From: Pseudomonadota bacterium
GTDB taxonomy: Bacteria > SAR324 > XYD2-FULL-50-16 > JAHJRI01
Reading direction: 5' to 3'
DNA: 7,503 bases
Assembly (NCBI GenBank): GCA_022360105.1
Contig: JAKSDL010000352.1
Coordinates: forward strand, 1 to 7,503
In this document: in pieces, positions 1,091-5,364 of the stretch
Layout: every line of letters starts with the position of its first letter
Position numbering within the stretch: position 1 is the stretch's first letter
The notes under the pieces: model-generated
Database searches by the model: none
Told to the model about the DNA's origin: nothing
The model's input: the letters and a program-made list of their open reading frames with translations, nothing else
Position numbers and translations under genes: made by a program

Positions 1091-1390
1091 GTTGCTCACA
1101 GCGATTGATCTTTAATTTTCACAAGCTTCTCCTTCAAGGTCCTCAAATCAACAAGTCAGTTTGCAGTATCCTTCAATCAAGCCAAATCATCGAAGGGGGT
1201 GACATTGATTTTCACGAGGATAGTCTCGTGGTTCATTCAGTTGAGATAATGAGCAAATTGGCATTCATAAAGGATTGATCTGGAATCGATTAAGAATGAA
1301 ATCCTGCATTAATGATGTGACACCTTGTGTTTCATGCGATATGATCATGACAACGTCAGAATCCATTTTCCCAGGATCTTCAGTATGATA

Positions 1391-1394
1391 GGAG
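1391..1394 (+). promoter_or_regulatory. Shine-Dalgarno site fixing the selenoprotein start
   Basis: AGGAG (1390-1394) lies five bases before the ATG at 1400 and selects it over the in-frame TTG 1325, ATG 1334 and ATG 1385. The ATG at 1400 also puts the positively charged signal-peptide start (MIKR) directly at the N terminus. Confidence 0.7.
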
Positions 1395-1399
1395 TTGAT

Positions 1400-1918
1400 A
1401 TGATCAAGCGTTTTCTTACTATGGGGTTAATCCTGTTCCTGTTTTCCTCCACGTCCCTGTTTGCTGCCAAACTACCAGAGTTCACAGGCAAATCAACAGA
1501 TCTCTGGATAAATTCCAAGCCTTTAAAACTGGCAGATTTGAAAGGCAATGTCGTTCTGATCGAAGTCTGGACCTCTACCTGAATAAGCTGCATCCGCAGC
1601 AAACCATGGGTCTATGGTTTAAAACAGACATACAAGGCAAAAGGGTTGAAAATCATTGGTATTCACACTCCTGAGGTTGAGATGGAAAAGCAGCGGGAGA
1701 AGGTGGAAAGGGTTGCTAAAATGTACCTTTGTGACTATCCCATCATGTTGGATAACGACAATCAGTATTGGAAAGCTCTCAAAATCAATTTCTGGCCCAG
1801 TTATTTTCTGGTAGACAGGTCCGGAAACATCGTAAACAATGCATACGGCGAAATGCGCAAGGGATTTCCTCGCACTGATAAGTTTGAAGCGGCGCTGGCA
1901 GAGCTTGTTTCCCAATGA
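1400..1918 (+). CDS. Periplasmic TlpA/DipZ-like thioredoxin, probable selenoprotein with U-x-x-C active site (in-frame TGA at 1580-1582)
   Basis: Read through the TGA at 1580-1582, this is one 172-residue protein. Residues 1-23 are a signal peptide (MIKR, hydrophobic core, SLFAA), so it acts outside the cytoplasm or as a lipid-anchored thiol reductase/oxidase. The rest follows the TlpA_like_DipZ_like thioredoxin pattern: strand NVVLIEVWTST (50-60), active site U61-I-S-C64, helix, KIIGIHTPE (84-92), LDNDNQYWKALKINFWPSYFLVD with the cis-proline at Pro133, and GNIV. Relatives carry W-T-x-x-C-I-N-C at the same place, so TGA replaces exactly the nucleophilic first cysteine. Homology continues in the same frame with no gap, and a hairpin with a GGGUCU loop follows 25 bases after the TGA (see SECIS entry). 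Alternatives: a pseudogene by a single Cys-to-stop change, or one long and one short dead ORF; conservation on both sides of the TGA argues against decay. The final stop is also TGA. Substrate is unknown; no cytochrome c maturation genes are nearby. Confidence 0.85.
1580..1582 (+). other. Predicted selenocysteine codon (UGA, Sec61)
   Basis: TGA in frame with both halves of the thioredoxin domain, aligned with the first cysteine of the family's C-x-x-C motif. The resolving Cys64 is kept. Redox-active cysteine positions are where selenocysteine is almost always found in bacterial thiol oxidoreductases. Confidence 0.82.
1587..1620 (+). promoter_or_regulatory. Putative bacterial SECIS element
   Basis: Downstream of the TGA are two adjacent hairpins inside the coding sequence. 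The first, GCTGC-ATCC-GCAGC (1587-1600), starts five bases after the TGA. The second has a perfect 7-bp stem, AAACCAT (1601-1607) with ATGGTTT (1614-1620), closing a six-base loop GGGTCT. The E. coli fdhF SECIS has a six-base apical loop AGGUCU, with the G and U bound by SelB; here five of six loop bases agree. The loop begins 25 bases after the UGA, inside the range known for bacterial SECIS elements. A bulged U below the apical stem, as in fdhF, is not obvious. Confidence 0.75.
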
Positions 1919-2089: not shown

Positions 2090-2608
2090 ATGGATAAACA
2101 GCAGGAAACAAAGGAAAAAAAGTCGATCAAGAACCTCTATCGCCGTTTTATAAAGATTCGCGGTAATCCAAGAGAAATCGCCTATGGATTTTCGCTGGGC
2201 ATTTTCATCGGCATGTCGCCTACTATGGGTGTGCAGATTATCCTGGCAGTCTTTATAGCTTCCCTGCTGAAATGGAACAAAATTTCTGCGACTATCGGTG
2301 TCCTTATTACCAATGCCTTCACGGCCCCGTTGCTATACACCATGACCTATCTGGTTGGTGCCAGAATCTTGGGGATGAAAAATAACTTCTCTTTCCCCAA
2401 GGAGATGAATCTGGAGTCGGTGATGGCGCTGATGGAAAAGGCACCATCCATTCTGGGTGCGATGACCGTGGGAGGAGTCGTTGTTGGGATACCTCTCGCA
2501 ATTGTTTCCTATTTTGCCGCTTATAAGCTTTCCGAATTCTATCAGAATAAGGTTAAAGACAAGATTCCAAAAGTCAGATCCCGCTCACACAAACAAAAAG
2601 GTCATTAA
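2090..2608 (+). CDS. DUF2062 family inner-membrane protein
   Basis: A 172-residue protein from the ATG at 2090. A basic amphipathic start (KSIKNLYRRFIKIRGNPREIAYGF, residues 11-34) leads into three hydrophobic segments at about 30-61, 66-93 and 120-146, followed by a strongly basic tail. The arrangement 'R-G-x-P-x-x-I-A-x-G-F-x-x-G-x-F-I-G-x-x-P' and the conserved T-N-A-F-T-A-P loop (74-80) between the first two segments are typical of DUF2062, a family of unknown biochemical role sometimes found beside glycosyltransferases or fused to them. Start is uncertain: ATG 2057 and TTG 2033 are in frame, and none has a well-spaced ribosome-binding site (GAGG at 2084-2087 is too close to 2090). The gene lies 171 bp after the selenoprotein in the same direction, so co-transcription is possible. 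Its stop overlaps that of the convergent gene. Confidence 0.82.
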   Translation: MDKQQETKEKKSIKNLYRRFIKIRGNPREIAYGFSLGIFIGMSPTMGVQIILAVFIASLLKWNKISATIGVLITNAFTAPLLYTMTYLVGARILGMKNNFSFPKEMNLESVMALMEKAPSILGAMTVGGVVVGIPLAIVSYFAAYKLSEFYQNKVKDKIPKVRSRSHKQKGH

Positions 2609-4257
2609 ACCCGGTTATTCTTCAAGTGTATCTCCAACTTCATCCTTGGTACCTGCAGTACATCAAATCCTATGATTACCAAGTGTTTTTTTCTGCTCAG
2701 CAAAGTATTAATATCATTGAGGCTTTTTGAGGCTGTCAAAACAGGAACAGGTTTGATGTCTATGTTCTCCAGATCTTTTTGCACACTGGCTTTGGAGATC
2801 CAGTTTCCCATGGTCAGGGGTGTTGTGTTTATCCAGTGTTTGAACCGGGGTGTTAAATCCAAAATATCCGGAACCAGTGGCTCCCCGGGATAAACAATGG
2901 CCAGGACGTTTTTTGTGAGGTCATTGAGATCCAGGCTTGAATCGTAAATCCGTAATGAATTGATTTCCGGACTCTGGATAAACGCGTCCAGGTGCTTTTT
3001 TTGAAAACTTGACGTTGTGACGGTTTGCTCAGAAACAATGGACTGGTCAGGAGATCCCCAAAGACGATGCTGTTTCTCACTTGAAAATGCCCCAATTTCC
3101 CTGAAGATGTAAAATCCTCCTACCCCATCCAGTGTTGCATGACTACTATCGGGGTAATAACTGAATCCGCCTTCCTGCGGAATATAGTACCGGTTAAACA
3201 AAATTCGAATATAATTCTCAAAGTGTTTTTTTGCCAGCGCCTGATTTTCCCTGGAACTATCCTTCCAAAGATACCGGGTCAGCAGCCTGAGGCTTTTTGG
3301 TGTTCTGAGATTCCATTCATGCAGATCATCCAGGTTATCATCTGCAGGGAAAGCTGTGGCCAGTGTTTCGAGGGTTGATGCAAAAAGCTTGTCTTTGTAT
3401 CGGAGCGGAAACTCGGGATGGATGTCATTTCCTTTTTTATCAACAAATGCTTTTAATATGGATGAGGTATTGTTCGTATCTTTTTTCAGCAGTTTGCCAT
3501 CTTTTGATTTAGGTCCCCACAAACCGGTTTTCGGGTCTTGATGCTCATAAAACCATTTCAGCAGGGTATGTCTCCATTCGGGTGAAAAGTTGTAAAGCCC
3601 GTGTTTTTGAATCACCATGTTTATGTTGTCAGGGTCGTAGTGAGTGAAATCCCTGGCTAAAGTAAGAATATCCCGTGCGTTATGGAAAGACGTCTGCGGC
3701 AGTTTGGCAGCAATCCAGTTCATCGTTGAGATATCGTCCAGGTAAGCAACCAGCTTCTCCGGGGTGTTGACCCTGTCCAGGTACTTCAGGCGGTATTTGA
3801 GTTTTAAAGGTCTATCCAGTTCCTTCACCAGGGATTCGATATGAAGTATGACATTCTCGGTAGGGCCGTGGTAGGTGCATAAAGGGTAGGCATCATCCAT
3901 AAATGCCCCGGTTTTGGGGTTTTGAAGGTTTAAATAAAACTCCAACTCTTCCTCTTTGCTCTTGAAATCAGGCATTTTGATCAGTCCTTTTTTTGTAATC
4001 AGTTGCTCGTGCAAGCGGTCCATTAATGCAGCTGACTTTGCAAACTCCCATTTACCAAGGTGATAAGCGATGCCCAGCCCTTTGAATTCGAATTCAGCCA
4101 TGTAATAATTCTGTTCCTGAAGCTGTTTGTTGAGTGTAAACATCTCCCGAATCCTGGCTTTTGCACGGTAAGCCTGGATTGAGATGAAGACGGCGATGAT
4201 CAAAGTTATAGCAAGTAATGAAAAGGTTATGGTTTTAAGCATTGTTTTGTTTTTCAT
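2605..4257 (-). CDS. Membrane-anchored protein with alpha/alpha-toroid-like repeats, function unknown
   Basis: A 550-residue protein I cannot assign to a named family. Residues 9-28 form one hydrophobic segment after a basic start, which reads as a signal anchor or uncleaved signal peptide, so the rest probably faces the periplasm. Three spaced motifs recall the inner-helix turns of terpenoid-cyclase/prenyltransferase-type alpha/alpha toroids: QNPKTGAF (112-119), QDPKTGLWG (240-248) and QEGGFSYYP followed by ATLDGVGGF (361-382). Family enzymes use aspartate-rich motifs or zinc ligands for catalysis; none is evident, so a binding or polysaccharide-related role is equally possible. The C-terminal part (about 440-550) has alternating strands and helices. 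No clear Shine-Dalgarno precedes ATG 4257; ATG at residue 6 is an alternative. A three-copy direct repeat and a possible -10 lie upstream, suggesting activated transcription. Confidence 0.8.
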   Translation of the reverse strand: MKNKTMLKTITFSLLAITLIIAVFISIQAYRAKARIREMFTLNKQLQEQNYYMAEFEFKGLGIAYHLGKWEFAKSAALMDRLHEQLITKKGLIKMPDFKSKEEELEFYLNLQNPKTGAFMDDAYPLCTYHGPTENVILHIESLVKELDRPLKLKYRLKYLDRVNTPEKLVAYLDDISTMNWIAAKLPQTSFHNARDILTLARDFTHYDPDNINMVIQKHGLYNFSPEWRHTLLKWFYEHQDPKTGLWGPKSKDGKLLKKDTNNTSSILKAFVDKKGNDIHPEFPLRYKDKLFASTLETLATAFPADDNLDDLHEWNLRTPKSLRLLTRYLWKDSSRENQALAKKHFENYIRILFNRYYIPQEGGFSYYPDSSHATLDGVGGFYIFREIGAFSSEKQHRLWGSPDQSIVSEQTVTTSSFQKKHLDAFIQSPEINSLRIYDSSLDLNDLTKNVLAIVYPGEPLVPDILDLTPRFKHWINTTPLTMGNWISKASVQKDLENIDIKPVPVLTASKSLNDINTLLSRKKHLVIIGFDVLQVPRMKLEIHLKNNRV

Positions 4258-4345
4258 ATCGGTTTTGGGTCAAAGGTTTATTATTTCAGAATGCAGGATG
4301 GGCCGACGAAACCTGCCCATCTCCAAGACTCAAATTCAATTTCTC

Positions 4346-4351
4346 ATTCTA
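4346..4351 (-). promoter_or_regulatory. Possible activator-dependent -10 element for the 550-residue gene
   Basis: On the minus strand this reads TAGAAT, one mismatch from TATAAT, about 90 bases upstream of the ATG at 4257. The position 17 bases further upstream has only a poor -35 (CAAATC), and the nearest copy of the direct repeat (4373-4384) abuts it. This is the layout of a promoter that needs an activator. Start site not determined. Confidence 0.35.
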
Positions 4352-4372
4352 CAACCGGGAAATGAATAGATT

Positions 4373-4435
4373 TGACCTGAATGGAGCCGATTTGTCCTGA
4401 ACGGAACAATTTATATTTGGGACTGTCCTGAAAGG
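4373..4435. promoter_or_regulatory. Three-copy direct-repeat array, putative LytTR-type operator
   Basis: Three copies of a 12-bp motif in one orientation: TGACCTGAATGG (4373-4384), TGTCCTGAACGG (4393-4404) and TGTCCTGAAAGG (4424-4435). On the minus strand the consensus is CCNTTCAGGWCA; the first two copies extend the match to about 15 bases. Start-to-start distances are 20 and 31 bp, close to two and three helical turns, so all three face the same side of DNA. LytTR regulators commonly bind direct repeats about two turns apart, and a LytTR gene ends just beside the array. That this protein binds here is inference. Confidence 0.55.
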
Positions 4436-4450
4436 TACCGGATGGCGTGA

Positions 4451-4468
4451 ATGAAACTAGAGTTTCAT
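4451..4468. repeat. Short perfect palindrome at the end of the LytTR gene
   Basis: ATGAAACT-AG-AGTTTCAT, perfect 8-base arms with a two-base centre, spanning the stop codon at 4457-4459. It could be a weak hairpin end or a binding site; no T-run follows on the minus strand, so it is not called a terminator. Confidence 0.3.
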
Positions 4469-5338
4469 CTCGATGCGGGATAATACCTCTTTGAGATTGT
4501 TTCTGCTGATGGGCAACATGTACTCGCCGTGTTGTAATAAAAGAGAGTACTGCCTGCCCCTCTTTTTGAGCTTAAGTACGTGATGTAGATTTACTATATG
4601 AGACCGATGAATCTGCATGAAACACTGCCTTGGCAGCTCTTCCAGGATTTCCTTTAGTGGCTTGCGGACAAGTAAGGTCTCGTGTTGGTCATCAAAATGA
4701 TGAAATATATCAAGATAGTGCCCGTTGACTGAGATATGAGATATATTGCGAGGGTCAATTCTACGAGTGATACTATCGACTTGAATCTCAACAATAGATT
4801 GGGGATTTTCCAGAGGGGAGCAACCCTGGTTTGGCGGCCTGCTCTCAAGATCTGCATTCACACGGTTAACCAGGTTTTCAATAATCGTGTTTTTGTAAAC
4901 CCTGTATGTATAAACCCCGAAAATTACAAAAGCGTAGGGAAAATGTCGCCAGTAATATCGAATCACCCAGCTTTTTTCGAACTGGTAGTAAGATTGTTTC
5001 ATCAGAAACAAAAAACCAATCGCCAAGGTGTAAATCACAATAAACTCAAAAGGGGTGGAAGCAAATCGAAGGAATAACTTCTTACCTGTCAGTTTTAAAT
5101 ATCCATAAATAGAGATGCCGTAAATAACGAAAGCAGCAAAAAGAGAGGTTCCCATAAACAGGTATTCAAGCAGCCCCTGGATCAACCGTTCGCGGGGTTG
5201 CGTGAATTTGAATATGGCAAAGTAAAACAGCGTGAAAAAAAGTACCAATTTAGCAGCAGATCTTATCACTTCTGCTGGAGGCGTGACAGCGCAGTTGGTT
5301 GCCGCGAACCTTTTAAGCTGTTGAAAAAACGGATTCAT
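4457..5338 (-). CDS. Membrane-bound LytTR-domain transcriptional regulator
   Basis: A 293-residue protein with an N-terminal membrane domain and a C-terminal DNA-binding domain. Hydrophobic segments at about 28-44, 58-80, 97-114 and 133-148 suggest four membrane passes; they are followed by a polar linker (150-182) and a LytTR domain (about 183-290). LytTR landmarks are ISHISVNGHYLDIFHHF (199-215), the strongly conserved FMQIHRSHIVNL (240-251) and LPISRN (275-280). There is no receiver domain, so it is not an ordinary response regulator; the membrane part may itself sense a signal and keep the protein at the membrane. It starts 26 bp after the marR stop on the same strand, consistent with one operon. 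No strong Shine-Dalgarno is seen before ATG 5338. A triple direct repeat just downstream is a candidate target. Confidence 0.9.
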   Translation of the reverse strand: MNPFFQQLKRFAATNCAVTPPAEVIRSAAKLVLFFTLFYFAIFKFTQPRERLIQGLLEYLFMGTSLFAAFVIYGISIYGYLKLTGKKLFLRFASTPFEFIVIYTLAIGFLFLMKQSYYQFEKSWVIRYYWRHFPYAFVIFGVYTYRVYKNTIIENLVNRVNADLESRPPNQGCSPLENPQSIVEIQVDSITRRIDPRNISHISVNGHYLDIFHHFDDQHETLLVRKPLKEILEELPRQCFMQIHRSHIVNLHHVLKLKKRGRQYSLLLQHGEYMLPISRNNLKEVLSRIEMKL

Positions 5339-5364
5339 CAGGTTTGATCAATAAAAATCTCAGT

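Follow-up and report, generated by a model that had tools for sequence, protein, structure and literature searches.

The gene at positions 1400–1918 of the window (the whole stretch of 7,503 nucleotides that was analysed) is almost certainly a single gene for an exported thioredoxin-fold thiol/selenol-disulfide oxidoreductase, in which UGA codon 61 is read as selenocysteine (Sec) by way of a downstream hairpin with a GGUC loop. Its product is very probably a genuine selenoprotein, representing a new, SAR324-type clade of a kind that is already known. SAR324 is a widespread uncultured group.

The frame contains exactly one internal TGA, at codon 61, and closes with a second TGA, read-through of the first giving a product of 172 residues (Table 1). 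A sequence-only reading had proposed an exported DipZ/TlpA-like thioredoxin here, with the in-frame TGA on the first Cys of its active site, a ribosome-binding site and signal peptide at its start, and TGA in normal use as a stop elsewhere; it had also expected standard gene calling to split the gene. These proposals stand. Without read-through, the ORF list indeed breaks the gene into 1325–1582 and 1646–1918, and truncated products recur in the databases (see below). Two of the nine window genes checked end in TGA, namely 1400–1918 and 371–676, the latter attesting its ordinary use as a stop; that the other eight genes hold no internal TGA is a consequence of how ORFs were listed and carries no evidence. 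An AGGAG motif lies 5 nucleotides before the ATG. At the N-terminus, K3 and R4 precede a hydrophobic stretch (Kyte-Doolittle peak 2.10, 13-residue window), and residues 1–22 thus appear signal-peptide-like by hydropathy, to which the low model confidence of the same region may be added; the protein is possibly membrane-anchored. A terminator scan of 1250–2060 found none, and an Rfam scan of the whole window at E up to 1 returned nothing.

Table 1. Features of the selenoprotein gene and its surroundings, with the basis of each assignment.
Feature	Position	Strand	Basis
Shine-Dalgarno-like AGGAG	1390..1394	+	Read directly; 5 nt before ATG 1400
Selenoprotein gene, exported DipZ/TlpA-like redoxin, 172 residues with Sec61 (predicted)	1400..1918	+	Homology, 11/11 relatives with TGA, structural model
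Signal-peptide-like N-terminus, residues 1-22 (putative)	1400..1465	+	Hydropathy after K3 R4, low pLDDT
TGA, Sec codon 61, first residue of U-I-S-C active site	1580..1582	+	Cys at this column in 96/120 listed database relatives
Small hairpin between UGA and SECIS, 5 pairs, 4-base loop	1587..1600	+	Window fold; role uncertain
Cys64, resolving residue of UxxC	1589..1591	+	Kept in 12/12 Sec-type sequences
SECIS-type hairpin, stem 1601-1608 / 1613-1620, loop GGUC 1609-1612	1601..1620	+	26 nt past UGA
Pro133 of W-P turn	1796..1798	+	Invariant column, alignment A2
Terminal TGA stop	1916..1918	+	Read directly

The internal TGA is shared by relatives across the SAR324 phylum. A contig scan found one contig with a close relative, L001, from a SAR324 cluster MAG; the two proteins are 83% identical, the TGA stands at the same codon, and L001 aligns with the window in four blocks, collinear in both, at 79.7–83.7% nucleotide identity. 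The window thus probably derives from a close SAR324 relative. A search of 52 SAR324-phylum genomes (E up to 1e-15) yielded 11 homologues in 10 genomes, the L001 locus included. Each has exactly one internal TGA at the same codon, directly preceding [I/S]-[N/S]-C-I-R-S-x-P-W-V, and, counting the window, all 12 sequences read have TGA in the place of the catalytic Cys. Identity falls as low as 45% in these relatives, and none has a further internal stop; random nonsense changes elsewhere in their genes, which the sequence-only reading had named as grounds for doubt, were looked for and not seen. To limit bias from the query, a Cys homologue (P0004, E up to 1e-10) was then searched in its place; it returned those 11 loci at the top, followed by seven stop-free matches of 27–37% identity at E 6e-16 or weaker. 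Neither Sec-form nor Cys-form queries found a close Cys form among the 52 genomes. An exported Sec reductase that shows no reversion to Cys among the genomes sampled offers a good system for studying the benefit of Sec outside the cytoplasm. One genome, G030, encodes the Sec redoxin at two loci (L012 on G030:C119 and L020 on G030:C543), and in L012 a Leu replaces the Trp of the WT motif. Beyond the phylum, a search of 50,697 phage records gave one weak match, and every best place in a search of 230 plasmid records lay below 60% identity (best 20 of 230).

Database proteins place Cys at the same column. At an E limit of 1e-10, a profile built from the C-terminal halves retrieved 1490 proteins; among the best 120, 96 have Cys at the Sec column, 23 start after the site, and one (P0050) has Trp. 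The 23 are C-terminal stubs, and members of the clade therefore stand cut in public records. Four stubs match loci that we read exactly or almost exactly (P0048 with L013, P0052 with L011, P0054 with L020 and P0059 with L015), and NCBI lists P0048, P0052 and P0059 under SAR324 as 'redoxin family protein'; stubs with no matched locus would presumably have Sec upstream as well. A separate group of stubs (P0053, P0055, P0057, P0060 and P0073), known from protein records alone, starts right after the Sec site with [M/V]NCQ[R/H]SFPWV. An 80-row tree set 12 Sec rows, 23 stubs and the one Trp row across a single branch (97/74, 98% of bootstrap trees) from 44 Cys rows, the latter being every third of the 96 Cys rows plus 12 from another search; with 113 columns, many forks of this tree are unresolved and long branches are flagged. 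The same split between Sec and Cys was recovered (99/98) from longer rows in a 35-row tree, which comprises the 36 rows of alignment A2 minus P0039, its 13 'Sec' rows being the 12 read sequences and the stub P0002, which presumably has Sec. One switch between Cys and Sec suffices for these trees, which have no fixed root; its direction would putatively be from Cys to Sec.

The read-through protein has the domain and fold of a redoxin on both sides of the TGA, as had been claimed from the letters. PF08534 (Redoxin) matches residues 24–160 at 3e-15 (56.7 bits against a cut-off of 26.6), spanning the TGA; AhpC-TSA and Thioredoxin_8 also exceed their cut-offs, and redoxin-type domains are the only Pfam matches in the 172 residues. 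The best sequence match in the PDB is the DipZ C-terminal domain (1.7e-24, residues 36–151), with the TGA opposite the first Cys of C-I-N-C. An AlphaFold2 model with Sec modelled as Cys reached a pLDDT of 91.9 and a pTM of 0.84, the pLDDT being 56 and 53 over residues 1–20 and 91 and above afterwards. When the model was searched against the PDB, DipZ C-terminal domains came first (rmsd 1.4, 34% identity), followed later by a plant quenching protein, NHLRC2 and ResA. Residue 61 lies in the model after strand 51–57 and before helix 62–81, which is the usual place of the attacking residue. Taken together, Pfam, alignment and model describe a redoxin thioredoxin fold that bears the W-x-x-x-[C/U]-x-x-C motif and a conserved W-P turn, whose Pro133 we take to occupy the cis-proline site of the thioredoxin fold.

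The best further evidence is a SECIS-type hairpin that the sequence-only reading had not described. The 60 nucleotides from the TGA onwards align without gaps in the 12 sequences (alignment A1), and the hairpin structure tested on them was taken from the fold of the window itself. Over stem columns 22–29 and 34–41, around the GGUC loop, 88.5% of cells are paired in the 12 sequences. Both sides of the pair change at pairs 23–40 (UA/AU), 24–39 (UA/CG/AU) and 27–36 (AU/GC/CG), amounting to 13 cells, and the covariation score is 0.409 against a shuffled mean of 0.146. None of 500 shuffles reached the hairpin in paired fraction, in both-side-changed cells or in covariation score, and every hairpin measure dropped when the partner was slid by 1–3 columns; the number of pairs with a both-side change (three) was equalled by 106 of the 500. 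Unprompted, RNAalifold returned the inner seven pairs of the SECIS stem and four pairs of a smaller hairpin nearer to the TGA. Pair 27–36 joins the third bases of a Pro codon and of a Tyr/His/Gln codon, which change together and remain paired in 12 of 12 sequences. The Val codon in the loop is GTC in all 12 (66 of 66 pairs), and codon conservation over the hairpin is in modest excess (146 of 272 same-residue codon pairs versus 1067 of 2629).

The hairpin also agrees with the rules for bacterial SECIS elements as given in the legend to Fig 2 of PMC13188914: a loop of 3–9 nucleotides with G in its first two positions, a stem of 4–16 bp, a distance of 16–37 nucleotides from the UGA, and an MFE of at most -7.5. 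All 12 sequences have the 4-nucleotide GGUC loop beginning with G, 5–8 contiguous pairs and a spacing of 26 nucleotides, and their 43-nucleotide folds range from -8.3 to -16.7 kcal/mol; in one of the 12 (L011), the minimum-energy fold of the 43-nucleotide piece is another structure. For a Cys control, seven plasmid loci were fetched, of which a first motif found two and a wider motif six, L041 giving none and being dropped. In these six plasmid-borne Cys homologues the loop-closing pair is not formed, and 0–5 of the eight pairs are present versus 6–8 in the Sec-type sequences. As a positive control, SelD in four gene-carrying genomes (L045–L048) has a hairpin 17 nucleotides after its TGA, again with a GGUC loop. 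The spacing within SAR324 thus differs between the SelD gene (17 nucleotides) and the redoxin gene (26 nucleotides). The smaller hairpin nearer to the TGA (A1 columns 8–12/17–21) was considered as a SECIS and rejected: it shows no covariation beyond shuffles, and pair 8–21 fails to form in 7 of the 12 rows, as does pair 11–18 in 2 of them. It could, by its position, shorten the spacing between UGA and SECIS.

Machinery for Sec insertion is present in the relatives. tRNA-Sec scores above the cut-off in 41 of the 52 SAR324-phylum genomes, which makes selenium use in SAR324 testable, and in every one of the 10 gene carriers; ARAGORN also finds a tRNA-Sec with anticodon TCA in G001, the closest genome. 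tRNA-Sec matches alone are weak proof because 5 of 14 control genomes also exceed the tRNA-Sec cut-off, compared with 2 for the SelB cut-off and 1 for that of SelA. SelB is above the cut-off in 48 of the 52 genomes and in 8 of the 10 gene carriers (all except G002 and G011), G001 scoring 288.5 bits over model positions 48–580. SelA is found in 9 of the 10 carriers, including G001 and excepting G011, and SelD in 8 of 10, excepting G006 and G011. Seven of these eight SelD genes have a TGA of their own; the eighth, in G001, covers only model positions 71–310 at a contig start. DsbD_TM occurs in 9 of the 10 carriers and is missing in G011. Gaps in the MAGs could explain these absences from G002, G006 and G011, and the genome of the window itself presumably holds the same machinery, judging by its relatives.

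It is very improbable that a near-cognate or suppressor tRNA reads the UGA not as Sec but as Trp, Cys or some different residue. Such a reading can point to P0050, where the sequence WTSIWINC has Trp at the Sec column, as a code 4 gene caller would print it; most likely this Trp is a TGA so printed by a metagenome gene caller. Against it, TGA also terminates both 1400–1918 and the gene at 371–676, tRNA-Sec, SelA, SelB and SelD are present in relatives, a covarying SECIS-type hairpin lies downstream, and the other 96 relatives that reach the site (best 120 of 1490) all have Cys. An accidental TGA in a dead or mis-sequenced gene is scarcely credible. The two pieces in the ORF list would fit a pseudogene, as would the promoter scan of 1250–2060 on both strands, where no signal stands out (three promoter-like sites against a shuffle mean of 1.8, sd 1.5; no clear excess); yet all 11 relatives keep the same TGA with no other stop, and the protein is conserved on both sides of it. 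A sequencing error at 1580 is very unlikely, as 11 loci in 10 genomes carry the same TGA. A pair of small proteins, with the second beginning past the TGA, is hardly conceivable, since the C-terminal products in public records (P0048, P0052, P0059) are set against stub start codons that differ between relatives, a strong hairpin just past the TGA, and a thioredoxin fold that in the model needs both halves, strand 51–57 and helix 62–81 meeting at residue 61.

For the selenoprotein, the following mechanism can be proposed. Guided by the GGUC-loop hairpin 26 nucleotides downstream, tRNA-Sec and SelB would insert selenocysteine at UGA codon 61. The selenolate of Sec61 would attack a disulfide or other oxidised substrate, Cys64 would resolve the resulting selenenyl-sulfide, and a DsbD-type membrane reductase would re-reduce the redoxin; family knowledge suggests just such a function, that of an exported selenol/thiol reductase recharged by DsbD. 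As to origin, we tentatively suggest a history that is possible while falling somewhat short of probable: the DipZ-like redoxin clade exchanged Cys for Sec a single time and has retained Sec ever since, with a SECIS that bears the GGUC loop of SelD but sits 9 nucleotides (three codons) further from the UGA, a distance that the small hairpin in between may shorten. Given the GGUC hairpin at two UGA spacings, SAR324 SelB would therefore have to tolerate both.

The sequence-only reading had held that a Sec form of this branch is little described, and this stands in part. UxxC redoxin selenoproteins are a known kind: a 'Redoxin family protein' selenoprotein with PF08534 and UxxC (example HEU0032618.1) is listed in Table 1 of PMC13188914 and as a row in PMC9312934, the listing citing the Global Ocean Sampling (GOS) survey and a 2016 survey. 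The window protein has the PF08534 domain and UxxC motif that define this family, and one Sec as in the listed type (HEU0032618.1 / MBA3499694.1), the comparison being with the table description and not with sequence, lineage or SECIS. Two GOS classes from marine microbes are likewise UxxC Sec redoxins, Prx-like 3 with 68 sequences (pfam08534 at E above 0.001) and Trx-like 1 with 321 (COG0526) (PMC2398784). These classes are broad and drawn from environmental reads, whereas the window protein matches PF08534 at 3e-15; its family may be among the GOS reads, although SAR324 is not named in the main text of PMC2398784. A thiol-disulfide isomerase-like UxxC selenoprotein from the Sargasso Sea, with four sequences (PMC1088965), is of the same type as the window protein by its description. 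The part of the claim that holds is that we found no description, in open-licence papers, of the SAR324-type clade, of Sec in all the members recovered, or of the SECIS that goes with it; in that literature, searches for selenoprotein, selenocysteine or selenium with SAR324 gave only PMC5029168 as relevant, where SAR324 appears in an organism table, and no selenoprotein paired with DipZ was found. To a class that appears in those papers mainly as table rows and environmental reads, the SAR324 sequences add a clade that is full-length, anchored in genomes and equipped with a covarying SECIS.

Among characterised families, the closest is the C-terminal domain of mycobacterial DipZ (2hyx, 5cyy), the best PDB match by both sequence and fold, which has W-x-x-x-[U/C]-I-[N/S]-C in common with the window protein but Cys in place of its Sec. 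DipZ itself is larger, having both a membrane domain and an additional C-terminal domain. The window protein, in contrast, is a single domain of 172 residues, in which Pfam shows no fused membrane domain of the DsbD type such as DipZ proper has. The ResA-like WAxxUGC family NF041054 shares a TlpA/ResA-like fold with an active-site Sec but has a UGC motif and a long form, and the window protein, at 33.7 bits against a cut-off of 300, is not a member. TlpA, ResA and DsbE are also exported thioredoxin-fold reductases, with a C-x-x-C site, and ResA structures match at 3e-12; they are Cys enzymes, however, and the window protein scores 64.4 bits on the ResA model NF002854 against a cut-off of 170.

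Elsewhere in the window, 2608–4257 encodes a protein of 550 residues that matches nothing in Pfam or NCBIfam, and falls within 2596–5355, a stretch missing between the matched L001 blocks. Upstream of the selenoprotein gene, 677–1399 spans about 720 bases without a convincing gene (small ORFs only, no Rfam match); nearly all of it is covered by 699–1432, which lies outside the blocks matching L001. Across the 12 loci a conserved operon was sought; neighbours were common only within small groups, and no partner gene is proposed. One such case is a long run of neighbours, at L026 (G029:C172) and L030 (G030:C543), common to the Sec redoxins L011 and L020.
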